A stretch of 64,000 nucleotides of DNA from positions 1,798,001-1,862,000 of the forward strand of contig NZ_OX458932.1 of NCBI RefSeq assembly GCF_949774925.1, written 5' to 3'. Position numbers and translations under genes: made by a program. Source of the DNA: Candidatus Methylacidiphilum fumarolicum (GTDB lineage Bacteria > Verrucomicrobiota > Verrucomicrobiia > Methylacidiphilales > Methylacidiphilaceae). Position 1 is the stretch's first letter. Every line of letters begins with the position of its first letter. Of the stretch, positions 13,168 to 45,335 are shown piece by piece. The notes below the pieces were generated by a model. It ran no database searches, was not told the origin of the DNA, and saw only the letters and a program-made list of their open reading frames with translations.

Positions 13168-14379
13168 AAACAGAAAAAGATAAAGAACTAGCCCTTTACT
13201 AACCCTTCCTTAATAAGGCCAAGACTTCTCGGGATAAAAAGACTGACTAGCATTCATTCCCACTAGATCGCCGTTTACAACCAAAAATCCGATGGACTTG
13301 CCCCTTTCACAATCATTCAAAAGGTTTATCATTCTTAACATGCAACTATGTTTTGTTGGATCCAGGGCTGCTAATAAAATGGAAAAAATTCGTTCAAGGA
13401 TTCATACTTCTTAGCACGTAACCATTCTATTGGAGAGGTCTCATCGTCAGTTGCTGATAAAATGATGAGCGTGCCCCAAAAACCAACGCGACACGCTAAA
13501 AAATCCTAGTAAAACTGGGGAATAGAGACTTCGGAGTCTCCGTAAAAATTTCTATCATTAGCTTTTTCTATTGCCGAGGAGATTGCTTGTGCAGGAAACA
13601 GCCTTCTAAAGCATAACTACTTTTCCTATGCGCTTATCATCAAGCTATGACCTCCCGACTCAAACTCTTTTGTGCAAATTTCAAATAATAAAATGCCTCT
13701 CCTTTAATTAACGAATACAAATCTTCAAAACACTTCCTATCCTTTGTTGGATTTATGTAACTACATAGTCCTCCCTTTATTGTAGATCGTAAAGTAAAGG
13801 CCTGAAGAACTATCGTATAGATATTTCCTAGCTAGACTTAAAGATTCGGCTAAATGAAGCTCATGGCCATGAAGCCCTTTATAAAGCTTCTTACATACAG
13901 ATTACGTGTCACAAAATAAAAAAAATGACCTTCCTTTGGATCTTCTTCCCTTTACGACGGAATAGAAGATAGCCTGTCAATTACTGGATAATAATAACCC
14001 AATCCAAAACTAAACCCATTGGCATAAGCCAAAATTCCTTGTATACCCCTGAAATTACAACTCCAAATTCCCTTTGGCTTAGCTAATTAGCTTCTCCTGT
14101 TGATCGTGGAAATGGCGGTGGATTGAATACATTATAGGGTTTTTCTGCTTAATAAGAAAGAAACCTTTCCAATAATGTATATCATTGGTTATCTAAACTC
14201 ATTACTCTTATCCATGTACAATATTAAAATAGTACTAACGAAAACTGAAAAAAATCCATTCGTTCGTTGGCGCATGCATTTTTAAGTCTTCATTCAATAA
14301 ATTCTTCTGACTTTTCTTTTATTGGCAAACCTAAACAAAGTTTCTTTTTCCTATTAATAATAGTGCAAGAGAATAGGAA
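13168..14379. other. Long gene-free stretch before the A/B array
   Basis: In about 1.2 kb of A+T-rich sequence I find no coding frame with family resemblance and no tRNA or rRNA. One compact hairpin stands out at 13525-13540 (GAGACT-TCGG-AGTCTC, a perfect stem with a stable tetraloop); it is not followed by a T-run, so it is not a standard terminator. The last 50 bases contain TTCTTTTTCCTATTA (14343-14357), a string that recurs in the leader of every later array unit, so the duplicated segment begins about here. Confidence 0.45.
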
Positions 14380-15981
14380 ATGAGCGGAAAAAGGTTTTTT
14401 ATTTTCTCTTTTTTTATTTTTCTTTTTTTTACTCTTCCTGCCTACTCTCAACAACAAGGCTATCAACCCAATGGGTCCCTTTCAGGGATCGATCCAAGTC
14501 TTGGTCCACTTATTCAAAAAGTTTTTCAGTTTGGTCAGCAAGCTAGAGAAGAAGGTGAGCAGATTGCCGTAAGCATCGCCCCCTTTCTATTTTTCATGGC
14601 CGCAGCCATTGGAGGATTTCGAGTGGCCTTCGGAAGGCCCATTATCGATGAACTCATCGATTATACCATCCATGCGGTCGTGATTTGGATCGTTGTGTAT
14701 GCACAATTTCCTCAGCACCTTATTGATGCCGCCAGGCAAGCATTAATTCAAGGTGGACTTAACTGGGGGCATCAAATCGCTAACCTTGCCTTTGATCCGC
14801 CTGCAGGAAGTACCCCAACGCAATGGTGGATATGTTGGATCCATGTGCCTCCATCCAGTGGAATTGGGGCTGTGGCATCTCCAGGAGGAGTGTGTCCGGG
14901 CAATATCGCCGATTTTAAATTTGGACCGATCTTTGTAAGCCGCATGTTTGGACTAGCCAATAATTTGGCGATTTTTAATCCAGTAGTCTACAAATATCTC
15001 AATCAAGCCTTTCAGGGACTTCTCTCATGGATGGCCATGATGCCAAATGACATCAGTCCGGTTGCTTCTCAAACTGTCACTGCCATGCAGATCTGGGCAA
15101 TCCCTCTTATGACTTCTATCGGCTGGGTATTTGCTCTAGTCTTAACAGCGGCTCTCCTGTGCATTGGAGCTATCTTCACCATCATCTTTAGCCAGATTAT
15201 ATTGCTTGGGGGCAGTGAGGCAGCCTATCAAGCCTTGACCGGTTTTGGGATTGCTCTGGTCCCATTGACTTTCTTTGCTTCCTTCCGTGGACTCTGGAGG
15301 CCAATGCTTATAGGCCTAGTCGCCGTATCAATCGTCCCACCCCTTTACTGCATCCTTGCCGGACTTGGTTATATGATGGCAGACATCATTTTTAACACCC
15401 TCTTTGGCATTAGTGTCAGTGGGGATATGGGCTTTGTAGCGGGTGCAACAACTCTAGGAGCCATGGTCCCAATGATCATTGAAGCAACCATCGGCTGGCC
15501 TATTAACGGACTTAGCCTTTCCAACCTTTTTGGAGGCAGTGAAGGCGGCTTTTCCAGTCTCTTACAAGTCTTTCTCCAATCCATTCTTACCAATAACGGT
15601 GCCACAGGAGGGGTCCCTATTCAACAATGCCTAGAACAAGGGGCTACGGCTAAAAGCTCTTTTTTGTGTGCTGTGGTCTATACCATTCTAGGGTTTTTGC
15701 AGGCTTCAGGAGCTTGGGTGCTCTACTCCCTAGGCATCAACATTGTGGCCGCTTTTATCTATGCTGGTTCTATGTTCCCTCTTGTTGCCGTACGAGTTGC
15801 GTATGGATGGTCTTTAGCCTTCTCTGACATGGCTGGGGCCTTGCTGGAAGGCTTTAGCGGGCATTTCGGTAGGGTGCACGGGGCAAGCATGGAAGGACTC
15901 CAGGGTGTGGGACAGAATATCCAAACCCGAGTAGGAGGCATCGTAAGAGCAATTGCTGGAAAGGACCCCCGCGTCCCATGA
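14380..15981 (+). CDS. Family A, full copy: polytopic membrane protein, VirB6/TrbL-like
   Basis: The only complete family member, 533 residues. A signal peptide (1-24, TLPAYSQQQ) is followed by hydrophobic segments near residues 64-82, 94-110, 238-276, 283-300, 309-335, 350-370, 427-441 and 447-485. The arrangement (secreted N-terminus, central multi-helix core, Gly/Ala-rich segments, soluble tail) recalls VirB6/TrbL inner-membrane components of type IV secretion channels. This is a fold-level guess, without diagnostic motifs. The ribosome-binding site is AGGAA before the ATG. The stop overlaps the start of the next gene (ATGA), so translation is likely coupled. Confidence 0.8.
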   Translation: MSGKRFFIFSFFIFLFFTLPAYSQQQGYQPNGSLSGIDPSLGPLIQKVFQFGQQAREEGEQIAVSIAPFLFFMAAAIGGFRVAFGRPIIDELIDYTIHAVVIWIVVYAQFPQHLIDAARQALIQGGLNWGHQIANLAFDPPAGSTPTQWWICWIHVPPSSGIGAVASPGGVCPGNIADFKFGPIFVSRMFGLANNLAIFNPVVYKYLNQAFQGLLSWMAMMPNDISPVASQTVTAMQIWAIPLMTSIGWVFALVLTAALLCIGAIFTIIFSQIILLGGSEAAYQALTGFGIALVPLTFFASFRGLWRPMLIGLVAVSIVPPLYCILAGLGYMMADIIFNTLFGISVSGDMGFVAGATTLGAMVPMIIEATIGWPINGLSLSNLFGGSEGGFSSLLQVFLQSILTNNGATGGVPIQQCLEQGATAKSSFLCAVVYTILGFLQASGAWVLYSLGINIVAAFIYAGSMFPLVAVRVAYGWSLAFSDMAGALLEGFSGHFGRVHGASMEGLQGVGQNIQTRVGGIVRAIAGKDPRVP

Positions 15982-16640
15982 CGATCCTGCTTTCCTTTTT
16001 TTTCCTTTATTATTACATTGAATCAACACATACCTATGCCAAGCTCTTCCTAACTAGGGAGAAAACCTACCCATATGTCCTAAGTCCCCATGTCTTCTTT
16101 GATCAAAAAGTAATTTACAATTGCAATGAAATGTCAAACGCACATATTCCCGAAGATCCCAGGTATCCTGCGGTATGGGCCAGGGCTTGGATTAATGGCC
16201 ATCCACTAAGCATGAAAAAATACACTAGAGCGCAAGCAGCATCTATGAGAGTCCGTAATGTTTCTCGTCATTCGAAATACGTCTGGCTTTCTAACCACTA
16301 TGAAGGTAGCGGAGAACTACATAAACAGGCGGAGTTTGTCGTGCTGCCGGCAGAAGGCACTCAAAAAATAGATGAATACATCTGTATTTTACACTGGGAT
16401 GATCTTGATCGTCCAATCGAAGAAGTAACCTTTACGATGGATCTTGGGGCCATCACCATGGCTATTCCTGGCATCGGTAGACAAAATAATCCTTATTATG
16501 TTCAGTGGCTCTATGGCACGTTTTTTAGGCTAGAACCTCCCGGTTACCAAAGAGTCGGGAGTACTGTCAGCTGGCGCTGGACCCATATCCCAAGGATTGA
16601 CCAAAAAATCCGCATCCAATGGTATGCCTGGTATAGATGA
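15978..16640 (+). CDS. Family B copy 1: small membrane-anchored protein
   Basis: A 220-residue protein of unknown function. One hydrophobic N-terminal segment (residues 3-15) acts as signal or anchor, followed by a probably extracytoplasmic domain. Segments nearly identical in all copies: STHTYAKLFLTREKTYPY, IPEDPRYPAVWARAWINGHP, GELHKQAEFVVLPAE, EEVTFTMDLGAITMAIPGIG, PYYVQWLYGTFFRLEPPGYQ and the C-terminal QWYAWYR. Between them lie short variable stretches; here DQKVIYNCNEMSN, AASMRVRN, NHYEGSG and HWDDLD. The start overlaps the full A gene by ATGA. I do not recognise the family. Confidence 0.8.
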   Translation: MTILLSFFFLYYYIESTHTYAKLFLTREKTYPYVLSPHVFFDQKVIYNCNEMSNAHIPEDPRYPAVWARAWINGHPLSMKKYTRAQAASMRVRNVSRHSKYVWLSNHYEGSGELHKQAEFVVLPAEGTQKIDEYICILHWDDLDRPIEEVTFTMDLGAITMAIPGIGRQNNPYYVQWLYGTFFRLEPPGYQRVGSTVSWRWTHIPRIDQKIRIQWYAWYR

Positions 16641-16754
16641 ATGGATCTTATCTCGGCTCTTCGCTTCAGAAGAAATCAGAGTTTCTAATAATGTTTTTGA
16701 TTTCAATGCAAGGCTCTTATCCCTTTTTATAGTGTCTTTTTTAAACTATGACAC

Positions 16755-16772
16755 AGGCATTGTAAAATGCCT
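16755..16772 (+). promoter_or_regulatory. Unit leader hairpin 1
   Basis: AGGCATT-GTAA-AATGCCT, a perfect 7-bp stem with a 4-base loop, located between B copy 1 and the next A gene. It is kept in all five inter-unit leaders while nearby bases vary. No T-run follows, so it is more likely a regulatory or processing element than a plain terminator. Confidence 0.5.
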
Positions 16773-16889
16773 CCGTTTGTAGATGCCTAACTCAGTCAGG
16801 AAAGTTAAAAGAAAAATCTCTTTGTTTTCCTTTCATTGGTCAAGTCTTTCCCTTCTTTTTCCTATTACTAGTTCTATACACCGTAATCA

Positions 16890-16976
16890 ATGAATAAAAT
16901 ATGTCTTTTTGTTTTTTTCTTCTATCCTTTTCCCTCCCTTTTTTTCTGGCATCCCCAGGAGGAGTATGTCCGATGA
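16890..16976 (+). CDS. Possible leader peptide upstream of short A copy
   Basis: A 28-codon frame starting MNKICLFVFFFYPFP and ending with a TGA that overlaps an ATG of the A frame (ATGA at 16973-16976). AGGAGG at 16957-16962 precedes that internal ATG by ten bases. The same ATG serves as the actual start of the medium A genes (MNKIPGN). The arrangement suggests termination-reinitiation coupling, but the frame could also be a by-product of the way the leader was joined. The same frame exists upstream of the A copies at 18443 and 21961. Confidence 0.35.
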   Translation: MNKICLFVFFFYPFPSLFFWHPQEEYVR

Positions 16977-17503
16977 ATATAGCCGATTTTAAATTTGGAC
17001 CGATCATTGAAGCAACCATCGGCTGGCCTATTAACGGACTTAGCCTTTCCAACCTTTTTGGAGGCAGTGAAGGCGGCTTTTCCAGTCTCTTACAAGTCTT
17101 TCTCCAATCCATTCTTACCAATAACGGTGCCACAGGAGGGATCCCTATTCAACAATGCCTAGAACAAGGGGCTACGGCTAAAAGCTCTTTTTTGTGTGCT
17201 GTGGTCTATACCATTCTAGGGTTTTTGCAGGCTTCCGGAGCCTGGGTGCTCTACTCCTTAGGCATCAACATTGTGGCCGCTTTTATCTATGCTGGTTCGA
17301 TGTTCCCTCTTGTCGCCGTACGAGTTGCGTATGGATGGTCTTTAGCCTTCTCTGATATGGCTGGTGCCTTGCTTGAAGGCTTTAGCGGGCATTTCGGTAG
17401 GGTGCATGGGGCAAGCATGGAAGGGCTCCAGGGTGTGGGACAGAATATCCAAACCCGAGTAGGAGGCGTCTTAAAAGCCATTGTTGGAAAGAAAATCGAT
17501 TAA
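16901..17503 (+). CDS. Family A, short copy 2
   Basis: A 200-residue derivative of the full A protein. It keeps the equivalents of residues 166-184 and 367-533 and lacks 182 codons between them. The join FGPI-IEAT falls on a GATC present at both break points of the full gene (14928 and 15474). From ATG 16901 the product gains a new hydrophobic leader (SFCFFLLSFSLPFFLASPGG) that looks like a signal peptide. The internal ATG 16973 with AGGAGG is an alternative start. It reads GGIPIQQ where the others have GGVPIQQ and ends LKAIVGKKID. The B start follows 25 bp after the stop. Confidence 0.65.
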   Translation: MSFCFFLLSFSLPFFLASPGGVCPMNIADFKFGPIIEATIGWPINGLSLSNLFGGSEGGFSSLLQVFLQSILTNNGATGGIPIQQCLEQGATAKSSFLCAVVYTILGFLQASGAWVLYSLGINIVAAFIYAGSMFPLVAVRVAYGWSLAFSDMAGALLEGFSGHFGRVHGASMEGLQGVGQNIQTRVGGVLKAIVGKKID

Positions 17504-17528
17504 AAGCCATTATTGGAAAGGAATCTTG

Positions 17529-18185
17529 GTGACGATCCTGCTTTGCTTTTTTTTCCTATATCATTACATCGAATCCACCCATACCTATGCCAAGCTATTT
17601 CTGACAAGGGAGAAAACCTACCCGTATGCCCTACGCCCGCATGTCTTCATTGATCAAAAAGTAATTGCTTATACCAATCAAGAGAGACTAGCCTATATTC
17701 CGGAAGATCCCAGGTATCCTGCGGTATGGGCCAGGGCTTGGATTAAGGGCCATCCGTTGAGTATGAAAAAATACACTAGAACACATGCTGCCGGGATGGG
17801 TCTTGTAGTTTCTCAACATTCGAAATACATCTGGCTTTCGAAAGAAAATATACCTGATGGTGAACTTCATAAACAGGCGGAGTTTGCCGTACTGCCAGCA
17901 GAAGGCACTCAAAAAATAGATGAATATGTCTGTATTTTAAACTGGGAGTCAGACCGGCCCATTGAAGAGGTAACCTTTACGATGGATCTTGGGTCTATCA
18001 CCATGGCTATTCCTGGCATCGGTAGACAAAATAACCCTTATTATGTTCAGTGGCTCTATGGCACGTTTTTTAGACTAGAACCTCCTGGCTACCAAAGAGT
18101 CGGTAGCACCGTCAACTGGCGCTGGTCTAATATCCCAAGGATTGACCAAAAAATTCGCATCCAATGGTATGCCTGGTATAGATGA
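17529..18185 (+). CDS. Family B copy 2
   Basis: Start set at GTG 17529 (MTILLCFFFLYHY), which matches the other copies and gives 218 residues; the frame is open further upstream to TTG 17481, but that part overlaps the A gene. The usual ATGA overlap is lost because a short sequence, AAAAGCCATT(G/A)TTGGAAAG, is duplicated in tandem at the A/B border (from about 17473 and 17503). Variable stretches: DQKVIAYTNQERL, THAAGMGLV, KENIPDG, NWESD. It has AWIKGHP instead of AWINGHP and VNWRWSNIP near the end. Confidence 0.75.
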   Translation: MTILLCFFFLYHYIESTHTYAKLFLTREKTYPYALRPHVFIDQKVIAYTNQERLAYIPEDPRYPAVWARAWIKGHPLSMKKYTRTHAAGMGLVVSQHSKYIWLSKENIPDGELHKQAEFAVLPAEGTQKIDEYVCILNWESDRPIEEVTFTMDLGSITMAIPGIGRQNNPYYVQWLYGTFFRLEPPGYQRVGSTVNWRWSNIPRIDQKIRIQWYAWYR

Positions 18186-18299
18186 ATGGATCTCGTCTTG
18201 GCTTTCCGCTTCCTAAAAATCAGAGTTTGTAATAATGTTTCTGATTTCAAAGCAAGGCTCTTATCACTTTTTTATAGTGTCTTTTTTAAACTATGACAT

Positions 18300-18317
18300 A
18301 GGCATTGTAAAATGCCT
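18300..18317 (+). promoter_or_regulatory. Unit leader hairpin 2
   Basis: Same AGGCATT-GTAA-AATGCCT stem-loop as in the other leaders. The flanks (GACATAGG, CTACGTTTGTGG) are the variant also found in leader 4, whereas leaders 1, 3 and 5 have GACACAGG and CTCCGTTTGTAG. Confidence 0.5.
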
Positions 18318-18442
18318 ACGTTTGTGGACGCATAACTCAGGCAGGAAAGTTGAAAAAAATACCTTTATTTTCCTTTCATCGGTCCAGCCTTCCCTTCTTT
18401 TTCCTATTACTAGTTCTATACACCGTAATAAATGAATAAAAT

Positions 18443-19051
18443 ATGTCTTTTTGTTTTTTTCTTCTATCCTTTTCCCTCCCTTTTTTTCTGGCATCCCCAG
18501 GAGGAGTATGTCCGATGAATATAGCCGATTTTAAATTTGGACCGATCATTGAAGCGACCATCGGCTGGCCTATTAACGGACTTAGCCTTTCTAACCTTTT
18601 TGGAGGCAGTGAAGGCGGCTTTTCCAGTCTCTTACAAGTCTTTCTCCAATCCATTCTTACCAATAACGGTGCCACAGGAGGGGTCCCTATTCAACAATGC
18701 CTAGAACAAGGGGCTACGGCAAAAAGCTCTTTTTTGTGTGCTGTGGTCTATACCATTCTAGGGTTTTTGCAGGCTTCCGGAGCCTGTGTGCTCTACTCCT
18801 TAGGCATCAACATCGTGGCCGCGTTTATCTATGCGGGATCAATGTTTCCTCTTGTCGCCGTACGAGTTGCGTATGGATGGTCTTTAGCCTTCTCTGACAT
18901 GGCTGGTGCCTTGCTGGAAGGCTTTAGCGGGCATTTCGGTAGGGTGCACGGGGCAAGCATAGAAGGGCTCCAGGGTGTGGGACAGAATATCCAAACCCGA
19001 GTAAGAGGCGTCGTAAGAGCCATTATTGGAAAGGATGGTCCCCACGAATGA
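18443..19051 (+). CDS. Family A, short copy 3
   Basis: A 202-residue short form with the same GATC join as copy 2, so both descend from one deletion event. It has SGACVLY where full and medium copies have SGAWVLY, a change shared only with the short copy at 21961. The tail is RGVVRAIIGKDGPHE. The stop overlaps the next B gene (ATGA). Upstream leader frame and AGGAGG-preceded internal ATG are the same as in copy 2. Confidence 0.65.
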   Translation: MSFCFFLLSFSLPFFLASPGGVCPMNIADFKFGPIIEATIGWPINGLSLSNLFGGSEGGFSSLLQVFLQSILTNNGATGGVPIQQCLEQGATAKSSFLCAVVYTILGFLQASGACVLYSLGINIVAAFIYAGSMFPLVAVRVAYGWSLAFSDMAGALLEGFSGHFGRVHGASIEGLQGVGQNIQTRVRGVVRAIIGKDGPHE

Positions 19052-19704
19052 TGATCCTGATTTCCTTTTTTTTCCTCTATCATTACATCGAATCGACCCA
19101 TACCTATGTGAAGCTCTTCCTGACGAGAGAAAAAACCTATCCGTATGCTCTAAGCCCGCATATCTTCTTTGATCAAAAAGTAATTTCTAATTCCAATCAA
19201 GGGCACCACGCCTATATTCCGGAAGATCCCAGGTATCCAGCGGTATGGGCCAGGGCTTGGATCAACGGCCATCCATTGAGCATAAAAAAATACACTAGAG
19301 CTCAGGCAGCGGAGTCCGGCTTTGTTTCACGTTATTCTAAATACGTCTGGCTTTCTAACTACTATGAAGAAAATGGAGAACTCCATAAACAAGCAGAGTT
19401 TGTCGTACTGCCAGCAGAAGGCATTCAAAAAATAGATGAATATGTCTGTATTTTAAACTGGGAGGATGTTGATCGGCCCATTGAAGAGGTGACCTTTACA
19501 ATGGATCTTGGGGCTATCACCATGGCTATTCCTGGCATAGGTAGACAAAATAACCCTTATTATGTTCAATGGCTCTATGGGACGTTTTTTAGACTAGAAC
19601 CTCCTGGCTACCAAAGAGTCGGTAGCATCGTCAGCTGGCGCTGGACCCATATCCTAAGGATTGACCAAAAAATCCGTATCCAATGGTATGCGTGGTATAG
19701 ATGA
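19048..19704 (+). CDS. Family B copy 3
   Basis: A 218-residue copy starting MMILISFFFLYHY. Variable stretches: DQKVISNSNQGHH, QAAESGFVSRY, NYYEENG, NWEDVD. It is almost identical to copy 4 two kb further on, so one was recently copied from the other. Small differences are EGIQKID, VGSIVSW and HILRIDQ. Confidence 0.78.
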   Translation: MMILISFFFLYHYIESTHTYVKLFLTREKTYPYALSPHIFFDQKVISNSNQGHHAYIPEDPRYPAVWARAWINGHPLSIKKYTRAQAAESGFVSRYSKYVWLSNYYEENGELHKQAEFVVLPAEGIQKIDEYVCILNWEDVDRPIEEVTFTMDLGAITMAIPGIGRQNNPYYVQWLYGTFFRLEPPGYQRVGSIVSWRWTHILRIDQKIRIQWYAWYR

Positions 19705-19817
19705 ATGGATCTTTTCTCGACTCTTCGATTCAAAAAAACCAGAGTTTCTAATAATGTTTTTGATTTCAATGCAAGGCTCTTATCCCTTTTTATAGTGTCT
19801 TTTTTAAACTATGACAC

Positions 19818-19835
19818 AGGCATTGTAAAATGCCT
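19818..19835 (+). promoter_or_regulatory. Unit leader hairpin 3
   Basis: Same AGGCATT-GTAA-AATGCCT stem-loop, with the GACACAGG/CTCCGTTTG flank variant. It stands upstream of a medium A copy, so the hairpin does not depend on the type of A gene that follows. Confidence 0.5.
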
Positions 19836-19952
19836 CCGTTTGTAGATGCCTAACTCAGTCAGGAAAGTTAAAAGAAAAATCTCTTTGTTTTCCTTTCATT
19901 GGTCCAGTCTTTCCCTTCTTTTTCCTATTAAAAGTTCTATACACCCTAATAA

Positions 19953-21050
19953 ATGAATAAAATACCTGGCAATATCGCCGATTTTAAATTTGGAGCGATC
20001 TTTGTAAGTCGCATGTTTGGACTAGCCAATAATTTGGCGATCTTTAATCCTGTGGTCTACAAATATCTCAATCAAGCTTTTCAGGGGCTTCTCTCATGGA
20101 TGGCTATAATGCCAAATGACATCAGTCCGGTTGCTTCTCAAACCGTCACTGCCATGCAGATCTGGGCAATCCCCCTTATGACTTCTATCGGCTGGGTATT
20201 TGCTCTTGTTTTAACAGTAGCTCTCCTTTGCATTGGAGCCATCTTCACCATCATCTTTAGCCAGATTATATTGCTTGGGGGCAGTGAGGCAGCCTATCAA
20301 GCCTTGACTGGTTTTGGCATTGCGCTGGTCCCATTGACTTTCTTTGCTTCCTTCCGTGGACTCTGGAGACCCATGCTTATAGGCCTAGTTGCCGTATCAA
20401 TCGTCCCAGCCCTTTACTGCATCCTTGCTGGACTAGGTTACATGATGGCAGACATCATTTTTAACACCCTCTTTGGCATTAGTGTCAGTGGGGATATGGG
20501 CTTTGTAGCGGGTGCAACCACCCTAGGAGCTATGATTCCTATGATCATTGAAGCAACCATCGGCTGGCCTATTAACGGACTTAGCCTTTCTAACCTTTTT
20601 GGAGGCAGTGAAGGCGGCTTTTCCAGTCTCTTACAAGTCTTTCTCCAATCCATTCTTACCAATAACGGTGCTCCAGGAGGGGTCCCTATTCAACAATGCC
20701 TAGAACAAGGGGCTACGGCTAAAAGCTCTTTTTTGTGTGCTGTAGTTTATACTATTCTAGGGTTTTTGCAGGCTTCAGGAGCCTGGGTGCTCTACTCCTT
20801 AGGCATCAACATCGTGGCCGCTTTTATCTATGCTGGTTCAATGTTCCCTCTTGTCGCCGTACGAGTCGCTTATGGGTGGTCTTTAGCCTTCTCTGACATG
20901 GCTGGGGCCTTGCTGGAAGGCTTTAGCGGGCATTTCGGTAGGGTGCACGGGGCAAGCATAGAAGGGCTCCAGGGTGTGGGACAGAATATCCAAACCCGAG
21001 TAAGAGGCGTCGTAAGAGCCATTATTGGAAAGGATGATCCCCACAAATGA
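19953..21050 (+). CDS. Family A, medium copy 4
   Basis: A 365-residue form that starts MNKIPGNIADFKFGAIF and continues as the full protein from about residue 174. It lacks the signal peptide and first two hydrophobic segments and keeps the whole helical core. Sequence-specific marks are FGAIF, MAIMPND, NNGAPGG and VPALYC (the full copy has VPPLYC). The start lies in the leader, directly joined to A sequence. The stop overlaps the B start by ATGA. Confidence 0.72.
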   Translation: MNKIPGNIADFKFGAIFVSRMFGLANNLAIFNPVVYKYLNQAFQGLLSWMAIMPNDISPVASQTVTAMQIWAIPLMTSIGWVFALVLTVALLCIGAIFTIIFSQIILLGGSEAAYQALTGFGIALVPLTFFASFRGLWRPMLIGLVAVSIVPALYCILAGLGYMMADIIFNTLFGISVSGDMGFVAGATTLGAMIPMIIEATIGWPINGLSLSNLFGGSEGGFSSLLQVFLQSILTNNGAPGGVPIQQCLEQGATAKSSFLCAVVYTILGFLQASGAWVLYSLGINIVAAFIYAGSMFPLVAVRVAYGWSLAFSDMAGALLEGFSGHFGRVHGASIEGLQGVGQNIQTRVRGVVRAIIGKDDPHK

Positions 21051-21703
21051 TGATCCTGCTTTCCTTTTTTTTCCTTTATAATTACATCAAATCAACGCAT
21101 ACCTATGCCAAGCTCTTCTTGACGAGAGAAAAAACCTATCCGTATGCTCTAAGCCCGCATATATTCTTTGATCAAAAAGTAATTTCTAATTCCAATCAAG
21201 GGCACCACGCCTATATTCCGGAAGATCCCAGGTATCCAGCGGTATGGGCCAGGGCTTGGATTAACGGTCATCCCCTGAGCATAAAAAAATACACTAGAGC
21301 TCAGGCAGCGGAGTCCGGCTTTGTTTCACGTTATTCTAAATACGTCTGGCTTTCTAACTACTATGAAGAAAATGGAGAACTCCATAAACAAGCAGAGTTT
21401 GTCGTACTGCCAGCAGATGGCACTCAAAAAATAGATGAATATGTCTGTATTTTAAACTGGGAGCATGTTGATCGGCCCATTGAAGAGGTGACCTTTACGA
21501 TGGATCTTGGGGCCATCACCATGGCTATTCCTGGAATCGGTAAACAAAATAACCCTTATTATGTTCAGTGGCTCTATGGCACGTTTTTTAGACTAGAACC
21601 TCCTGGCTACCAAAGAGTCGGCAGCACCGTCAGCTGGCGCTGGACCCATATCCAAAGGATTGACCAAAAAATTCGCATCCAATGGTATGCTTGGTATAGA
21701 TGA
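21047..21703 (+). CDS. Family B copy 4
   Basis: A 218-residue near-duplicate of B copy 3, with the same first three variable stretches (DQKVISNSNQGHH, ESGFVSRY, NYYEENG) and NWEHVD instead of NWEDVD. The anchor reads MMILLSFFFLYNYIKS. Differences from copy 3 near the end are VGSTVSW and HIQRIDQ. Confidence 0.78.
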   Translation: MMILLSFFFLYNYIKSTHTYAKLFLTREKTYPYALSPHIFFDQKVISNSNQGHHAYIPEDPRYPAVWARAWINGHPLSIKKYTRAQAAESGFVSRYSKYVWLSNYYEENGELHKQAEFVVLPADGTQKIDEYVCILNWEHVDRPIEEVTFTMDLGAITMAIPGIGKQNNPYYVQWLYGTFFRLEPPGYQRVGSTVSWRWTHIQRIDQKIRIQWYAWYR

Positions 21704-21817
21704 ATGGATCTTTTCTCAGCTCTTCGATTCAGAAGAATCAGAGGTTCTAATAATGTTTTTGATTTCAAAGCAAGGCTCTTATCACTTTTTTATAGTGTCT
21801 TTTTTAAACTATGACAT

Positions 21818-21835
21818 AGGCATTGTAAAATGCCT
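21818..21835 (+). promoter_or_regulatory. Unit leader hairpin 4
   Basis: Same AGGCATT-GTAA-AATGCCT stem-loop, with the flanks of leader 2. It is part of the block at about 21753-22522 that duplicates 18235-19004. Confidence 0.5.
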
Positions 21836-21960
21836 ACGTTTGTGGACGCATAACTCAGGCAGGAAAGTTGAAAAAAATACCTTTATTTTCCTTTCATCGG
21901 TCCAGCCTTCCCTTCTTTTTCCTATTACTAGTTCTATACACCGTAATAAATGAATAAAAT

Positions 21961-22563
21961 ATGTCTTTTTGTTTTTTTCTTCTATCCTTTTCCCTCCCTT
22001 TTTTTCTGGCATCCCCAGGAGGAGTATGTCCGATGAATATAGCCGATTTTAAATTTGGACCGATCATTGAAGCGACCATCGGCTGGCCTATTAACGGACT
22101 TAGCCTTTCTAACCTTTTTGGAGGCAGTGAAGGCGGCTTTTCCAGTCTCTTACAAGTCTTTCTCCAATCCATTCTTACCAATAACGGTGCCACAGGAGGG
22201 GTCCCTATTCAACAATGCCTAGAACAAGGGGCTACGGCAAAAAGCTCTTTTTTGTGTGCTGTGGTCTATACCATTCTAGGGTTTTTGCAGGCTTCCGGAG
22301 CCTGTGTGCTCTACTCCTTAGGCATCAACATCGTGGCCGCGTTTATCTATGCGGGATCAATGTTTCCTCTTGTCGCCGTACGAGTTGCGTATGGATGGTC
22401 TTTAGCCTTCTCTGACATGGCTGGTGCCTTGCTGGAAGGCTTTAGCGGGCATTTCGGTAGGGTGCACGGGGCAAGCATAGAAGGGCTCCAGGGTGTGGGA
22501 CAGAATATCCAAACCCGCGTAGGAGGCATCGTAAGAGCAATTACTGGAAAAGGCTCACAATGA
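21961..22563 (+). CDS. Family A, short copy 5
   Basis: A 200-residue short form, identical to short copy 3 through most of its length (including SGACVLY) up to QTRV. It then switches to GGIVRAITGKGSQ, close to the tail of the full copy (GGIVRAIAGKDP). The exchange point near 22515 suggests recombination between units. The stop overlaps the next B start (ATGA). Confidence 0.65.
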   Translation: MSFCFFLLSFSLPFFLASPGGVCPMNIADFKFGPIIEATIGWPINGLSLSNLFGGSEGGFSSLLQVFLQSILTNNGATGGVPIQQCLEQGATAKSSFLCAVVYTILGFLQASGACVLYSLGINIVAAFIYAGSMFPLVAVRVAYGWSLAFSDMAGALLEGFSGHFGRVHGASIEGLQGVGQNIQTRVGGIVRAITGKGSQ

Positions 22564-23213
22564 CGATCCTGCTTTCCTTTTTTTTCCTTTATAATTACAT
22601 CAAATCAACGCATACCTATGCCAAGCTCTTCCTGACGAGAGAAAAAACCTACCCATATGCCCTAAGCCCCCATGTCTTCTTTGATCAAAAAGTAATTACT
22701 TATGATCAAGGGGGATTCGCTTATATTCCGGAAGATCCCAGGTATCCTGCGGTATGGGCCAGGGCTTGGATTAACGGTCATCCCCTGAGCATGAAAAAAT
22801 ACACTAGAGGGCAAGCAGCCGGGATGGGGCATTTAGTTTCTCGACATTCGAAATACGTCTGGCTTTCTAACCACTATGAAGGTAGCGGAGAACTACATAA
22901 ACAGGCGGAGTTTGTCGTGCTGCCGGCAGAAGCTACCCAAAAAATCGATGAATACGTCTGTATTTTAAATTGGGAGCCAGACCGGCCCATTGAAGAGGTG
23001 ACCTTTACGATGGATCTTGGAGCCATCACCATGGCTATTCCTGGAATCGGTAGACAAAATAACCCTTATTATGTTCAGTGGCTCTATGGCACGTTTTTTA
23101 GGCTAGAACCTCCCGGTTACCAAAGAGTCGGGAGTACTGTCAGCTGGCGCTGGACCCATATCCCAAGGATTGACCAAAAAATCCGCATCCAATGGTATGC
23201 CTGGTATAGATGA
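22560..23213 (+). CDS. Family B copy 5
   Basis: A 217-residue copy with variable stretches DQKVITYDQGGF, GQAAGMGHLV, NHYEGSG and NWEPD. It is a mosaic: the middle (NHYEGSG) and the last 60 residues with the following leader match copy 1, the DQGGF segment matches copy 7, and the anchor (LYNYIKS) matches copy 4. Confidence 0.78.
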   Translation: MTILLSFFFLYNYIKSTHTYAKLFLTREKTYPYALSPHVFFDQKVITYDQGGFAYIPEDPRYPAVWARAWINGHPLSMKKYTRGQAAGMGHLVSRHSKYVWLSNHYEGSGELHKQAEFVVLPAEATQKIDEYVCILNWEPDRPIEEVTFTMDLGAITMAIPGIGRQNNPYYVQWLYGTFFRLEPPGYQRVGSTVSWRWTHIPRIDQKIRIQWYAWYR

Positions 23214-23327
23214 ATGGATCTTATCTCGGCTCTTCGCTTCAGAAGAAATCAGAGTTTCTAATAATGTTTTTGATTTCAATGCAAGGCTCTTATCCCTTTT
23301 TATAGTGTCTTTTTTAAACTATGACAC

Positions 23328-23345
23328 AGGCATTGTAAAATGCCT
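23328..23345 (+). promoter_or_regulatory. Unit leader hairpin 5
   Basis: Same AGGCATT-GTAA-AATGCCT stem-loop; the leader is the same as leader 1 (identical block 16597-16782 and 23170-23355), although the A genes that follow are of different types. Confidence 0.5.
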
Positions 23346-23462
23346 CCGTTTGTAGATGCCTAACTCAGTCAGGAAAGTTAAAAGAAAAATCTCTTTGTTT
23401 TCCTTTCATTGGTCAAGTCTTTCCCTTCTTTTTCCTATTACTAGTTCTATACACCCTAATAA

Positions 23463-24557
23463 ATGAATAAAATACCTGGCAATATCGCCGATTTTAAATT
23501 TGGACCGATCTTTGTAAGTCGTATGTTTGGACTAGCCAATAATTTGGCGATCTTTAATCCAGTGGTCTACAAATATCTCAATCAAGCCTTTCAGGGACTT
23601 CTCTCATGGATGGCCATGATGCCAAATGACATCAGTCCGGTTGCTTCTCAAACTGTCACTGCCATGCAGATCTGGGCAATCCCTCTTATGACTTCTATCG
23701 GTTGGGTATTTGCTCTAGTCTTAACAGCGGCTCTCCTGTGCATTGGAGCTATCTTCACCATCATCTTTAGCCAGATTATATTGCTTGGGGGCAGTGAGGC
23801 AGCCTATCAAGCCTTGACTGGTTTTGGCATTGCTCTGGTCCCATTGACTTTTTTTGCTTCCTTCCGTGGACTCTGGAGACCCATGCTTATAGGCCTAGTT
23901 GCCGTATCAATCGTCCCAGCCCTTTACTGCATCCTTGCTGGACTTGGTTATATGATGGCAGACATCATTTTTAACACCCTCTTTGGCATTAGTGTCAGTG
24001 GGGATATGGGCTTTGTAGCGGGTGCAACAACTCTAGGAGCCATGGTCCCAATGATCATTGAAGCGACCATCGGCTGGCCTATTAACGGACTTAGCCTTTC
24101 CAACCTTTTTGGAGGCAGTGAAGGCGGCTTTTCTAGTCTCTTACAAGTCTTTCTCCAATCCATTCTTACCAATAACGGTGCCACAGGAGGGGTCCCTATT
24201 CAACAATGCCTAGAACAAGGGGCTACGGCTAAAAGCTCTTTTTTGTGTGCTGTGGTCTATACCATTCTAGGGTTTTTGCAGGCTTCAGGAGCTTGGGTGC
24301 TCTACTCCTTAGGCATCAACATCGTGGCCGCGTTTATCTATGCTGGTTCAATGTTCCCTCTTGTCGCCGTACGAGTTGCGTATGGATGGTCTTTAGCCTT
24401 CTCTGATATGGCTGGTGCCTTGCTTGAAGGCTTTAGCGGGCATTTCGGTAGGGTGCATGGGGCAAGCATGGAAGGGCTCCAGGGTGTGGGACAGAATATC
24501 CAAACCCGAGTAAGAGGCGTCGTAAGGGCTTTAACCAAAGGAAATATTGAGGGATAA
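23463..24557 (+). CDS. Family A, medium copy 6
   Basis: A 364-residue medium form starting MNKIPGNIADFKFGPIF. It is closer to the full copy than medium copy 4 is (MAMMPND, NNGATGG), but has VPALYC as in copy 4. The tail is RGVVRALTKGNIEG. The stop is TAA and the next B gene begins 17 bp later, so the ATGA overlap is absent in this unit. Confidence 0.72.
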   Translation: MNKIPGNIADFKFGPIFVSRMFGLANNLAIFNPVVYKYLNQAFQGLLSWMAMMPNDISPVASQTVTAMQIWAIPLMTSIGWVFALVLTAALLCIGAIFTIIFSQIILLGGSEAAYQALTGFGIALVPLTFFASFRGLWRPMLIGLVAVSIVPALYCILAGLGYMMADIIFNTLFGISVSGDMGFVAGATTLGAMVPMIIEATIGWPINGLSLSNLFGGSEGGFSSLLQVFLQSILTNNGATGGVPIQQCLEQGATAKSSFLCAVVYTILGFLQASGAWVLYSLGINIVAAFIYAGSMFPLVAVRVAYGWSLAFSDMAGALLEGFSGHFGRVHGASMEGLQGVGQNIQTRVRGVVRALTKGNIEG

Positions 24558-24574
24558 TTAGACAATTTTTCCCA

Positions 24575-25231
24575 ATGATTATCCTGTTTTCTTTCTTTTT
24601 TCTTTATTGGTACTTCGAATCAACCCATACCTATGTCAAGCTCTTCCTGACGAGGGAGAAAACCTACCCATATGTCCTAAGTCCTCATGTCTTCTTTGAT
24701 CAAAAAGTTGTTTTTAAATGCAATGAAGGTTTCAACGCCTATATTCCGGAAGATCCCAAGTATCCTGCGGTATGGGCCAGGGCTTGGATTAATGGTCATC
24801 CGCTGAGCATGAAAAAATATAATGCCCAGCAAGCATCTATGATAGTCCGTTATGTTTCTCGCCATTCGAAATATGTCTGGCTTTCTAGAGAAAACATACC
24901 CGATGGAGAACTCCATAAACAAGCAGAGTTTGTCGTACTGCCAGCAGAAGGCGCTCAAAAAATAGATGAATACATCTGTATTTTGCACTGGGAGTCAGAT
25001 CGGCCCATTGAAGAGGTGACCTTTACAATGGATCTTGGGGCTATCACCATGGCTATTCCTGGAATCGGTAAACAAAATAACCCTTATTATGTTCAGTGGC
25101 TCTATGGCACGTTTTTTAGACTAGAACCTCCTGGCTACCAAAGAGTCGGTAGCATCGTCAGCTGGCGCTGGACCCATATCCCAAGGATAGATCAGAAAAT
25201 CCGCATCCAATGGTATGCCTGGTATAGATGA
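24575..25231 (+). CDS. Family B copy 6
   Basis: A 218-residue copy starting MIILFSFFFLYWYFES. Variable stretches: DQKVVFKCNEGFN, YNAQQASMIVRYV, RENIPDG and HWESD. ENIPDG is shared with copy 2, and HW with copy 1. The usual long leader does not follow; instead a short, T-rich 98-bp spacer leads to B copy 7. Confidence 0.78.
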   Translation: MIILFSFFFLYWYFESTHTYVKLFLTREKTYPYVLSPHVFFDQKVVFKCNEGFNAYIPEDPKYPAVWARAWINGHPLSMKKYNAQQASMIVRYVSRHSKYVWLSRENIPDGELHKQAEFVVLPAEGAQKIDEYICILHWESDRPIEEVTFTMDLGAITMAIPGIGKQNNPYYVQWLYGTFFRLEPPGYQRVGSIVSWRWTHIPRIDQKIRIQWYAWYR

Positions 25232-25329
25232 TTTTTTTTATGCTTCCTTCCACTCCCAATACCACACTACCTAATAATGAGTTGAGTCCCAACCGACCTA
25301 TGATTAACTCTCCATAGGAAAGACCACCC

Positions 25330-25983
25330 ATGACGATTCTGCTTTCCTTTTTTTTCCTTTATAATTACATCGAATCAACCCATACCTATGTCAAGCTCTT
25401 CCTAACGAGGGAGAAAACCTACCCGTACACCCTACGCCCGCATGTCTTCTTTGATCAAAAAGTAGTTGCTTATGACCAAGGGGGATTCGCCTATATTCCG
25501 GAAGATGCCAGGTATCCTGCGGTTTGGGCCAGGGCTTGGATCAACGGCCATCCGCTGCTCATGAAAAAATACACTAGCGCGCAAGCAGCCGAGGCGGGTC
25601 ATCTAGTTTCTCGTCATTCGAAATATGCCTGGTTTTCTAACCTCTATGAAGGTAGCGGAGAACTCCATAAACAAGCGGAGTTTGTCGTACTGCCAGCAGA
25701 AGACACTCAAAAAATCGATGAATACATCTGTATTTTAAATTGGCAGTCAGACCGGCCAATCGAAGAGGTAACCTTCACGATGGATCTTGGGACCATTATC
25801 ATGGCCATTCCAGGCATCGGTAAACAAAATAGCCCGTATTATGTCCAGTGGCTCTATGGCACTTTTTTTAGGCTAGAACCTCCTGGCTACCAAAGAGTCG
25901 GTAACACCGTCAGCTGGCGTTGGTCCAAGATCCCAAGGATTGATGAGAAAATCCACATCCAATGGTATGCCTGGTATAGATGA
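25330..25983 (+). CDS. Family B copy 7, without A partner
   Basis: A 217-residue copy that has no A gene before it, only a 98-bp spacer with a Shine-Dalgarno-like ATAGGAAAG. Variable stretches: DQKVVAYDQGGF, SAQAAEAGHLV, NLYEGSG, NWQSD. It has most changes in otherwise fixed segments (EDARYPA, HPLLMKK, AWFSN, GTIIMAIPGIGKQNSP, IDEKIHIQ), so it may be an older or relaxed copy. It ends the array; the next gene converges from the other strand. Confidence 0.78.
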   Translation: MTILLSFFFLYNYIESTHTYVKLFLTREKTYPYTLRPHVFFDQKVVAYDQGGFAYIPEDARYPAVWARAWINGHPLLMKKYTSAQAAEAGHLVSRHSKYAWFSNLYEGSGELHKQAEFVVLPAEDTQKIDEYICILNWQSDRPIEEVTFTMDLGTIIMAIPGIGKQNSPYYVQWLYGTFFRLEPPGYQRVGNTVSWRWSKIPRIDEKIHIQWYAWYR

Positions 25984-26036: not shown

Positions 26037-27272
26037 TTATGGTACTTTTTCTTTAGAGGTATCTTTTTCTTTTTGTTTCTTACCATCCGATAAGGAAAGA
26101 GGATAACGCATCTGAGATTTTGTTTGTATTTGTATCCCGTGGGTTATCGCTTTTTGTAAGCCTTTCTGACTTTCAAACACATAATCTGTGGGATAATTTC
26201 TAAATTCATCCGTATACGCATCAGCAGTAACGACATAGGGGAAACCTGCTTTCTTCAGTTCCTCGGAAAGATCAGTGTTTCTTGTTTTCCATTCTCCCAA
26301 ATGGTAAGCTCCTCCCCAATGGATCACTCTGGCACCTGGATAATAAAAAGATCTAGTTTCTGCCACTTTTTTAATGCTGCATGGACCATATTTATGATCC
26401 TTTTTTAACTCTAGGGTTCCAGACATCCTTTGATCCCTATAATTCAAAAATTCAGGGTTCATGTCTGCTTCTATGATAATGTTTCCACTATCGATATCTC
26501 CTAATTTTTGATAGCATCGAACTACAAGGCTTTTATCCCTCCGCTGCATTTTCGCTATACTATCCAGTTGCTTTAAGAAGAGATCCTGGGAATCATGTAA
26601 AAAAATTCCTTCTTTTTGAAGTGCCTCGGCTAGTTTCTTTTTAAGACTCTCTTTTGGGCTTTTCTCAAGCAAAGCACTTTTCCTTGCTTTCTTTAGGTAC
26701 TCCTCAATAGGCTGTTGGCAGGATTCAGGCAAACCTATTCTAAGAAATAGATTTCCTTTTTTCGCCTGTTCTTTCAGTTCTTTCGTGCTAATGTCCACCG
26801 CATAGACCTGCAAATTTCCATGGTTTAGAACATTATGCTTTACTGCCTCTCTGATTACATCGGCATAATTAGGCATACCTTTAATCGGTCCTATTTCCCC
26901 AGTGTCTTTCGCCCCAGTTCTTTTTTCCACTAAATACCATTGGTTTGTATCCCTTTTGAAATAATACTTTTCCATCTCATAAGGTGAGAGAAGAGCAGGG
27001 TTTCTTTTTGTCATTTTATAGAGCAGTTTTGCTTCCAATCGATCGACTCTTTTTTCAGCTTCTTGCATATCTAATTTATGCTCGTTAGCCTTTTCATAGA
27101 TCTGACTAGCTTTCCGCATAAAATGTTGGATTAGGGGATTAAAATCCCTTGAAAGTTCCAAGGCTATAACAAAGCCTTGTTGATCAAGTTGAGGAAGGGT
27201 CTTTATTAAGGACTTATGATGATTCTTAGTGTGGATCTCACCCACAAGGACCGCTAAATCTCTTCTTTTCAT
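26037..27272 (-). CDS. Tiki/ChaN-like protein (EreA/ChaN superfamily), putative
   Basis: A 411-residue cytoplasmic protein without a signal peptide. It shows the sparse signature of the EreA/ChaN/TraB-Tiki superfamily: VLVGEIHTKNHH near the start, ALELSRDF at about residue 37, and IHWGGAYHLGEW at about 315, a pattern of Glu-His and Gly-x-His motifs that forms a metal site in known members. The middle contains a Lys/Glu-rich helical insertion (about 75-105 and 190-230), and the tail is strongly charged. The substrate is unknown. It converges on the A/B array. Confidence 0.5.
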   Translation of the reverse strand: MKRRDLAVLVGEIHTKNHHKSLIKTLPQLDQQGFVIALELSRDFNPLIQHFMRKASQIYEKANEHKLDMQEAEKRVDRLEAKLLYKMTKRNPALLSPYEMEKYYFKRDTNQWYLVEKRTGAKDTGEIGPIKGMPNYADVIREAVKHNVLNHGNLQVYAVDISTKELKEQAKKGNLFLRIGLPESCQQPIEEYLKKARKSALLEKSPKESLKKKLAEALQKEGIFLHDSQDLFLKQLDSIAKMQRRDKSLVVRCYQKLGDIDSGNIIIEADMNPEFLNYRDQRMSGTLELKKDHKYGPCSIKKVAETRSFYYPGARVIHWGGAYHLGEWKTRNTDLSEELKKAGFPYVVTADAYTDEFRNYPTDYVFESQKGLQKAITHGIQIQTKSQMRYPLSLSDGKKQKEKDTSKEKVP

Positions 27273-27349: not shown

Positions 27350-28039
27350 CTAAGGAGACTTGGTAAGACTAAACTGTAATTCGACTAGCCTATTTGCTAT
27401 GAATTTACATCTTAGAGGAGACGGTGTTATATATTGTTCTTTGCTGATAGAGATTGGATAGGGTATCAATAAAGAGCCATTCTTCTCCAGAAACTTTCTC
27501 TTAAGCCCATAGGCTTTTATGATATCTTCAGGACTAAACTTCACTTTACTTCCATCAAAAGTTATAACGACATTTTGCTTCTTCTCAATGCAACTAATTG
27601 ATAAGCGATTTGGATTTTTCTCCAGGATAAGCATCCACCCCCCCAAATCTCCTATCGGAGTTTCATATTCTTCATCTTTTGTGTAGTCAACCGCTACAAT
27701 TTCTCTTATGGCTCGATCAACTGTACTTGGACAATCATAAGTGTAAACTGATTTTCTAGTTCGAATTTCACAATAATCATGCCCTTTTTGTATGACTTTC
27801 GGACGGGAAGAATATTTTTGAACCCTAAAGATTCTGTTATCCTCTGTTATTTTATATAAATTATCCGGAAAATAATATGTTATTGCTTTAACAAGACTTT
27901 TAAAGTCTTCGATATCCATCGATTGTTTTCTTATTAAATTTAAAAGCTTGGTTTCAGCGTCTAGGAGTTCTATGGTGCCAAGAAAAAAAAGAAAAAAGAA
28001 AACCATCCGTTTCTCACAAAACAAGTTCAATATTCTCAT
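27350..28039 (-). CDS. Secreted protein of unknown function
   Basis: A 229-residue product from ATG 28039 (an upstream TTG at 28060 is also in frame). The N-terminal signal is MVFFFLFFLGTIELLDAET at about residues 12-30. The rest has no motif known to me; cysteines near CEIRTRKS, YDCPST and SCIEKK could form disulfides. It lies 77 bp upstream of the Tiki/ChaN-like gene on the same strand, so the two may form an operon. Confidence 0.6.
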   Translation of the reverse strand: MRILNLFCEKRMVFFFLFFLGTIELLDAETKLLNLIRKQSMDIEDFKSLVKAITYYFPDNLYKITEDNRIFRVQKYSSRPKVIQKGHDYCEIRTRKSVYTYDCPSTVDRAIREIVAVDYTKDEEYETPIGDLGGWMLILEKNPNRLSISCIEKKQNVVITFDGSKVKFSPEDIIKAYGLKRKFLEKNGSLLIPYPISISKEQYITPSPLRCKFIANRLVELQFSLTKSP

Positions 28040-28299
28040 ATCTATTTTATAGGTTCCCAATTCTATAAGAGAACCTCCCTAGGTCTGTTTTTTTTCTGTT
28101 TTATCCCCACATCTGTAGCCCTCAAGTCATATGAGACCAGCCCAAACAATTTAGGTTTTTCAGAGAGCTATTTATTAGCTAAGAAAAGAAGTAACTGAAG
28201 GTCTATCTACTTCCCTCCGTCTAATCAAAAGTTTCAAGAGTTCTTAAGTAAGAGATGAAAAGAAATTTCACTTTTCACTTGATTAGAGAACAGGGGCTT

Positions 28300-28860: not shown

Positions 28861-28990
28861 TAACCTCTCCCCTATGTCGCAACGAGCGACCATTCCTCTC
28901 CTTTGGATAGGGATGGATCCATCATCATCCAAAACCTAGATAGAAAAGAAAGAATTGCAGAATAACCCCCTTTCATCAAAAATAGGAAAA

Positions 28991-29668
28991 ATGGGTCTTT
29001 TGTCTTTCTTTCTTGCCTTCTTCTTTTTTGCTTACTATGAAAAAATAGACACCTATGCTCGACTCTTTCTCACTCAAAAGCCTGGCACTATGTTCCAGGA
29101 ACCGCACATATTTTTCGATCAACGATATTCTTCCGTACTTTCTCCTGTACTATTCGTAGGCAATCTATTTTTGCCTGAAGACCCTCAATTTCCAGCATTG
29201 TGGGTCAGGGGATGGCTCAATGGCTCTCCGATTCCTATGAAAAAATATCCACGAGAAGAAGCAGAAAAAATTTTTGCTAGACATTATGCCTCACACTACG
29301 CCCAATATGTCTGGCTTTCTGAGTCTTTTCATGTCCATGGTGGTTATAATTATATCATTCAAGCTGAATTCAACGTCCTTCCGGCTCTAGAACAAGGGAA
29401 AATTGATGAATTCCACTATATTATCAATGGAAATTCTTCCGAACCCCTGTATATGACTTTTACTCTAGATCTCAGCTACATCAATCGATTCATTCCTGGA
29501 ATTGGAAAACCCAACTCTCCCTATTTTATCCAATGGTTGTGTGGCAATTTTTTTAAACTTTCTCCAGATGGCTACAAAACTTCGAGTGGTAGAGTCTATT
29601 GGCAGTGGCAAAATATTCATTCTATTGATCAAAAAATTAAAGCAGAATGGTATGCTTGGTACAGGTAA
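28991..29668 (+). CDS. Family B, divergent eighth copy
   Basis: A 225-residue homologue of the array B proteins. It keeps the frame of conserved positions: anchor LLSFFLAFFFFAYY, DTYARLFLT, PHIFFDQ, LPEDPQFPALWVRGWLNG, MKKYPREEA, IIQAEFNVLPA, FTLDLSYINRFIPGIG, YFIQWLCGNFFKL and the end EWYAWYR. Identity to the array copies is roughly 40-45% by eye, so it separated long before the array was amplified. ATG 28991 matches the start of the other copies; a TTG at 28955 is upstream in frame. No A gene is next to it. Confidence 0.75.
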   Translation: MGLLSFFLAFFFFAYYEKIDTYARLFLTQKPGTMFQEPHIFFDQRYSSVLSPVLFVGNLFLPEDPQFPALWVRGWLNGSPIPMKKYPREEAEKIFARHYASHYAQYVWLSESFHVHGGYNYIIQAEFNVLPALEQGKIDEFHYIINGNSSEPLYMTFTLDLSYINRFIPGIGKPNSPYFIQWLCGNFFKLSPDGYKTSSGRVYWQWQNIHSIDQKIKAEWYAWYR

Positions 29669-45314: not shown

Positions 45315-45335
45315 TATGGTCTATCATTTAGTGTA

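Follow-up and report, generated by a model that had tools for sequence, protein, structure and literature searches.

A recombining tandem gene array with four variable windows beside a putative VirB6/TrbL-like gene in Candidatus Methylacidiphilum fumarolicum

Why does a free-living, thermoacidophilic methanotroph keep seven intact copies of one gene in a row, differing mainly in four short windows, and why is a second gene copied along with them? The array lies in the single-contig genome (2,476,671 bases; G000) of Candidatus Methylacidiphilum fumarolicum, in a stretch of 64,000 nucleotides (contig NZ_OX458932.1, C1:1798001-1862000) that we call the window; coordinates are window positions unless prefixed C1: (the same genome) or given on an L-numbered locus. 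We call the loop-variable family B and the partner family A, with copies numbered along the window (A1–A6, B1–B8). A full-length A1 is followed by seven intact B open reading frames (ORFs) of 217–220 amino acids (aa) (Table 1). Five extra copies of A stand one ahead of each of B2–B6: A2, A3, and A5 have a common internal deletion (about 200 aa), A4 and A6 lack the N-terminal third, and no A copy precedes B7. In four of the six A–B pairs the A stop and the B start overlap in the sequence ATGA. Our best explanation of the whole, held tentatively and at somewhat less than an even chance, is that B, encoded in a recombining tandem array, acts outside the cytoplasm as a variable partner of a VirB6-like A, serving in recognition or exclusion. 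Its evolutionary part (duplication, recombination, and constraint on both the framework and the A pieces) has good support; the function we infer.

For comparison we used related genomes (G001–G004) and three genomes (G006, G007, and G008) from a sister genus of the same family, Methylacidiphilaceae. G003 (2,287,145 bases) is presumably M. infernorum V4, and we take G004 to be M. kamchatkense. The sister genus (g3) would be Methylacidimicrobium, judging from named records bearing the same kind of B. A second strain of the source species was not found in the genome collections searched.

The initial annotation had described the B proteins as a nearly invariant framework interrupted by four short variable windows, and this pattern recurs in data outside that annotation. 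Pairwise DNA identity among the seven genes is 82.6–95.4%, and 69 of 220 aligned residues are variable (31 of 35 window columns versus 38 of 185 others), a count that is partly circular because the window columns (W1–W4) were picked from the annotation's own description. There are 34 adjacent variable columns; 10,000 permutations averaged 21.3 and reached 34 at most. The three-copy array of G003 has a proportion of nonsynonymous differences (pN) of 0.027 in the framework versus 0.245 in the windows, and the single-copy orthologues of G004 and G001 give 0.039 versus 0.358; the contrast is weaker between B8 orthologues from three genomes (0.019 versus 0.069). Since these contrasts agree, the windows are fast in every data set, whether an array is present or not.

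The ratio of nonsynonymous to synonymous substitution rates (dN/dS) in the seven copies is 0.09 in the framework (bootstrap 95% interval 0.06–0.13), which is thus under strong purifying selection. All four windows together give 0.67 (0.39–1.14), and W1 and W3 give 1.03 (0.50–2.11). We therefore rejected a ratio above 1 as a claim, the window interval including 1, and the diversifying selection proposed in the initial annotation is not borne out: the windows appear to evolve near the neutral rate, diversifying selection is possible, and these data do not separate it from relaxed constraint. The windows might then simply be unconstrained loops, in an array driven by dosage or by neutral duplication through which recombination spreads neutral variants. 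The window ratio, the in-frame insertions and deletions that occur in the windows, their placement in loops (see below), and a related genome (G002) that lacks B all fit such an account. We nevertheless consider it unlikely, though a live rival, as framework constraint keeps seven B copies intact, and the arrays of the two species contain different duplicated A pieces, which are constrained in their turn.

Recombination between copies is well supported. The pairwise homoplasy index (PHI) test on the seven B genes gave p = 0.0002 (94 informative sites, 5000 permutations) at three window sizes of the test, and among 60 simulated non-recombining sets with fast windows p ≤ 0.05 occurred in three and p ≤ 0.005 in none. 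Shared runs pass Bonferroni correction in 3 of 21 pairs (B1–B5, B3–B4, and B4–B6). In approximately unbiased (AU) tests, segment 541–660 rejects the trees of all three other segments, segment 136–336 rejects those of 337–540 and 541–660, and segment 1–135 rejects that of 337–540; segment 337–540 rejects none. The segment trees thus disagree in part. The C-terminal A tree and the B tree of the six units also reject each other (AU p = 1.4e-5 and 1.6e-5), as A3 and A5 are almost identical, whereas the closest copy to B3 is B4 and that to B5 is B1. The gene conversion between cassettes named in the initial annotation hence stands as within-gene recombination, the route being either gene conversion or unequal crossing-over, which the tests do not tell apart.

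The window variants listed as reassorting in that annotation do not form uniform proof and were rejected as such; they differ in weight. The DNA encoding NHYEGSG is identical in copies 1 and 5, and DQGGF in copies 5 and 7 differs by one silent change. Between copies 2 and 6, ENIPDG differs at three silent positions, which makes its sharing old or convergent. SNSNQGHH was discarded as a sign of reassortment: its bearers, copies 3 and 4, separated recently and have three windows in common (95.4% identity overall). HW (copies 1 and 6) was set aside as well, being two residues only.

The truncated A pieces are, unexpectedly, conserved. Across the six A copies 31 of 151 codons are variable, and 27 of these 31 are silent. 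When private derived changes were polarized with G004 and G001 (148 codons), the short copies had five silent and one amino-acid-changing, and A4 and A6 had four and none. The total of nine to one yields p = 2.3e-5 at a neutral share of 0.757 and 1.4e-4 at 0.70. The G003 A copies behave alike: all 11 variable codons in a stretch of 82 are silent, although past this stretch the copies do show residue differences. Plain debris was rejected as an account of the pieces, their private changes being mostly silent. If translation of B were under selection, that could keep the A frames open but would not account for the silent bias; part of that bias could be mimicked by repeated conversion from a selected copy. 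Strong variation among the A copies is confined to the extreme C-terminal tail (before 15981, 17503, 19051, 21050, 22563, and 24557).

What kind of protein is B? An AlphaFold2 model of B5, built from 16 sequences, has a mean predicted local confidence (pLDDT) of 84 and a predicted TM score (pTM) of 0.82. In B5 numbering, W1 (46–55) lies mostly over loop 49–54, W2 (82–92) covers a short helix and coil, W3 (104–109) is coil, and W4 (137–140) comprises a strand end and loop. The model thus supports the loop location proposed in the initial annotation, the windows being mostly coil or loop segments, and W3 and W4 would sit at the same end if strands 110–119 and 129–138 are antiparallel neighbors. 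The best aligned solved structure is Legionella lpg2210 (4g2a; Z = 11.8, r.m.s.d. 3.9, 179 residues), followed by oligosaccharyltransferase chains, N-terminal domains of M1 aminopeptidases, and inter-alpha-inhibitor heavy chain 1. These share the β-sandwich arrangement with B; identity is 5–12% in the matches listed, and B, unlike them, is a single domain predicted to be exported. The common fold says nothing on the function of B. A possible family for 4g2a is DUF4424 (PF14415), a domain of unknown function (DUF) whose model has no match in the source genome at E ≤ 10.

Neither Pfam, NCBIfam, nor PADLOC models match B, a PHROG scan of A and B and a PADLOC scan of A likewise led nowhere, and the best hit in a sequence search of solved structures has an E-value of 1.3. 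The top matches in a viral fold library are giant-virus proteins, one named as inter-alpha-trypsin inhibitor family, and also led nowhere. The sister-genus homologues begin with signal-peptide-like sequence, and B is thus probably exported. The terminal motif AWYR is present in 39 of 45 collected B-family sequences; among the remaining six, AWYR is followed by a short tail in two, the end of the locus truncates three, and the last has PWW at its C-terminus. AWYR (e.g. 25969–25980) is almost invariant, though the family otherwise falls to about 25% identity, and might be a sorting or processing signal. B occurs in 11 of 60 genomes (own included), all of one family, and a survey of 288 genomes from the phylum found it in four, again of that family; among the genomes searched it appears confined to Methylacidiphilaceae. 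Two further B homologues lie elsewhere in the source genome, one with an internal stop.

A looks like a VirB6/TrbL-like protein. Its sequence has long hydrophobic stretches, and full-length copies in relatives are 42–97% identical to A1. Two of 11 A-family members scanned match the TrbL model at E ≤ 1, L081 with 30.2 bits (above the cut-off of 25.9) and L094 with 14.6 (below it), so the family is tied to TrbL/VirB6 only through distant members. The TrbL/VirB6 model found no match in the source genome, and a sequence search of solved structures with the A family returned antibody chains as its best rows (E-value 0.018 and above), which we take as chance. A homologues occur in 17 of 60 genomes (own included) and in 12 of 13 within the family. 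At locus L091 of G005, a genome without B, two A-like genes adjoin.

In G006, G007, and G008, A directly follows genes for TraD, a 210-aa protein, and a 622-aa protein in a type IV secretion system (T4SS) locus, which in G007 also holds VirB4-, VirB8-, VirB9-, VirB10-, and PilB-like genes. Of the locus names, TraD, VirB4 (P-loop TraG), TrbI, T2SSE and, weakly, VirB2 come from Pfam; the VirB8, VirB9, PilN, PilO, and PilP labels are our reading of the sequences. In the G008 locus, a MoxR-type gene and A flank a tandem run of four B homologues (L054:8660-12073). The first of the four does not end in the AWYR typical of the family, and A has a fifth, fragmentary B as its immediate neighbor. A distant A relative in G020 also adjoins a secretion ATPase, and each of the nine family members examined has VirB4. 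In the source genome the T4SS locus (about C1:1.33-1.375 Mb) is without A and has a B homologue at its end (C1:1333473). That A moved out of the T4SS locus in Methylacidiphilum is the simpler reading, given its place in the sister genus and the G020 relative beside a secretion ATPase. G004 and G001 carry a single A–B pair. G003 has an array of three B genes with a full A and two A pieces of only 128–130 aa; the pieces differ from those of the source genome, so the two arrays formed separately.

We propose that B is an exported β-sandwich protein partnering A, which would be a membrane component of the chromosomal T4SS of Methylacidiphilaceae. In Methylacidiphilum, A would have moved from the T4SS locus to where it now stands, and independent tandem duplications in two or more species would have multiplied a unit that joins the 3' part of A to B. 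Exchange between these units by recombination would reshuffle the copies, four loops varying while the framework stays fixed, such that the cell may encode several B variants, the majority accompanied by a constrained C-terminal A piece. The loops may be where B touches a variable partner carried by another cell or element, in T4SS target recognition or exclusion, and the retained A pieces may anchor or export the extra B proteins. A bolder version, rather unlikely in our estimate, holds that the array is a modular T4SS repertoire: the C-terminal part of a VirB6-type protein would have split off and been copied as a membrane partner for each loop-variable B, and recombination of units would provide several target or exclusion specificities per cell.

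A number of results weigh against the proposed partnership. No TrbL model matches A itself, which against Pfam and NCBIfam yields one DUF at an E-value of 0.36 and nothing else, and the fold model of A has a pLDDT of 33, with helices of low confidence. The source genome has another, 455-aa VirB6-like gene in its own T4SS locus (30% identical to A over 93 residues), and A is thus not clearly needed there. G002 retains A and VirB4 and has no B, making B dispensable in that genome, and many sister-genus B homologues are not beside A. The near-identical A copies show no covariation with the B windows, which makes A an unlikely target for the variable loops inside the cell. A search with two relaxase families (PF03432 and PF08751) found none. 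On the evolutionary side, the full-length B tree is rejected by no segment, and the conflict therefore lies between segments rather than with the average tree; a window dN/dS above 1 is not demonstrated.

B could alternatively be an exclusion or immunity protein, exported copies in a recipient blocking a related T4SS or its toxins, with the array as a specificity set. This account is doubtful, yet we allow it an appreciable chance. Excerpts of PMC8923210 and PMC11493245 describe an exclusion gene adjoining its VirB6-homologue target (e.g. TraG) in several conjugation systems, and B directly follows A, mostly with the ATGA overlap; several B homologues elsewhere have no A alongside. TraT specificity has been ascribed to a five-residue region, according to the title of a reference cited in PMC11493245. 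Genes of SUKH-1 type, a common immunity class in the excerpted part of PMC3482391, occur in the source T4SS locus, ahead of A in G004, and as a wreck ahead of A here, and the same excerpt describes polyimmunity loci as tandem arrays of immunity paralogues. Conversely, B matches none of the Pfam, NCBIfam, or PADLOC models, A does not co-vary with the windows, and no toxin was identified, the two-family relaxase search being likewise empty. The SXT/R391 and IncF Eex/TraS–TraG determinants are reported as cytoplasmic in excerpts of PMC11493245, whereas B looks exported.

These systems resemble the array in part. Entry and surface exclusion (Eex–TraG and TrbK–TrbL; PMC8923210 and PMC11493245, in excerpt) pairs the gene of an exported or membrane protein with a VirB6/TrbL homologue and has specificity groups; its proteins have no sequence match to B in our searches, and B, a candidate exclusion protein, is multi-copy and mosaic. 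Polyimmunity loci share the tandem paralogues of one type, here with SUKH genes close by (PMC3482391, in excerpt), but B is not a recognized immunity family. In Anaplasma the T4SS genes VirB2 and VirB6 are multiplied in tandem, with 8 to 15 VirB2 paralogues and two hypervariable regions, and the likeness lies in tandem T4SS-component paralogues whose diversity falls mainly in hypervariable regions (PMC3556328, in the part available). Anaplasma VirB2 is a helical pilin, whereas the variable B is a predicted β-sandwich, the VirB6-like copies here are mostly truncated and nearly invariant, and the host is free-living. Membership of B in an Anaplasma-type or exclusion system is not established by these likenesses.

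Surface-antigen families diversified by gene conversion offer another parallel, with within-gene recombination between paralogues seen for B; the model places the windows in loops, and their dN/dS, given above, does not tell diversifying selection from relaxed constraint. B might be an antigen that varies to evade phages or grazers and is functionally unconnected to the T4SS. It is probably exported, loop-variable, and recombining, as such an antigen would be. Against this, the B genes keep company with a VirB6-like gene and, among sister-genus genomes, with a T4SS locus, and a repeat search and promoter scan gave no pointer to silent cassettes or a switch, no search dedicated to these having been made. 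We regard a plain antigen as improbable. The VirB6-like partner and the sister-genus T4SS locus favor a specificity role, a label that is itself a guess. If the partnership of B and A is real, a recombining recognition repertoire would be tied to a secretion machine outside pathogens. The array would then also allow a clean test of the capabilities of a VirB6 C-terminal fragment standing alone and give a handle on an undescribed exported family.

The sections of the Methylacidiphilum genome papers at hand (PMC2474590, PMC4210602, and PMC6688271) contain no discussion of the array or of a T4SS; those of PMC4210602 report 409 repeats genome-wide and do not name this array. A search of the literature on verrucomicrobial methanotrophs found no T4SS discussion within the terms used. 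A promoter and terminator scan gave no more sites than shuffled sequence.

Table 1. Members of the A and B families in the window.
Feature	Position	Strand	Description
A1	14380..15981	+	Full-length, 533 aa, predicted polytopic, signal-peptide-like start; putatively VirB6/TrbL-like (ORF, relatives 42–97% identical, distant member passing the Pfam TrbL cut-off, sister-genus T4SS locus)
B1	15978..16640	+	Start overlaps A1 stop by 4 nt (ATGA)
A2	16901..17503	+	Internally deleted, 200 aa; retains A residues 366–528
B2	17529..18185	+	GTG start; possible upstream TTG at 17481 (the one in the ORF list)
A3	18443..19051	+	Internally deleted, 202 aa
B3	19048..19704	+	ATGA overlap with A3
A4	19953..21050	+	N-truncated, 365 aa; A residues 172–530
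B4	21047..21703	+	ATGA overlap with A4
A5	21961..22563	+	Internally deleted, 200 aa; 99.8% identical to A3 in common C-terminal part
B5	22560..23213	+	ATGA overlap with A5; copy used for structure model
A6	23463..24557	+	N-truncated, 364 aa
B6	24575..25231	+	ORF
B7	25330..25983	+	ORF; no A copy ahead
B8	28955..29668	+	Diverged B paralogue (47% identity); orthologues in three other Methylacidiphilum genomes

Other genes were noted in the same stretch. A frame-disrupted, SUKH-like gene remnant lies just ahead of A (13374–14202, minus strand); G004 has an intact homologue in the corresponding position, and the source T4SS locus contains another. Downstream on the minus strand are genes for a 411-aa protein with a sub-threshold ChaN/Tiki match (26037–27272) and a 236-aa protein with an export-signal-like start (27350–28060), both of which accompany the A–B locus in G004 and G003 and are possibly an effector–immunity pair. 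Further along, two near-identical 178-aa ORFs (36526–37062 and 41869–42405, minus strand) are probably remnants of a TnpB-type element, and an intact-looking TnpB/TnpA pair is located at 43779–45752.

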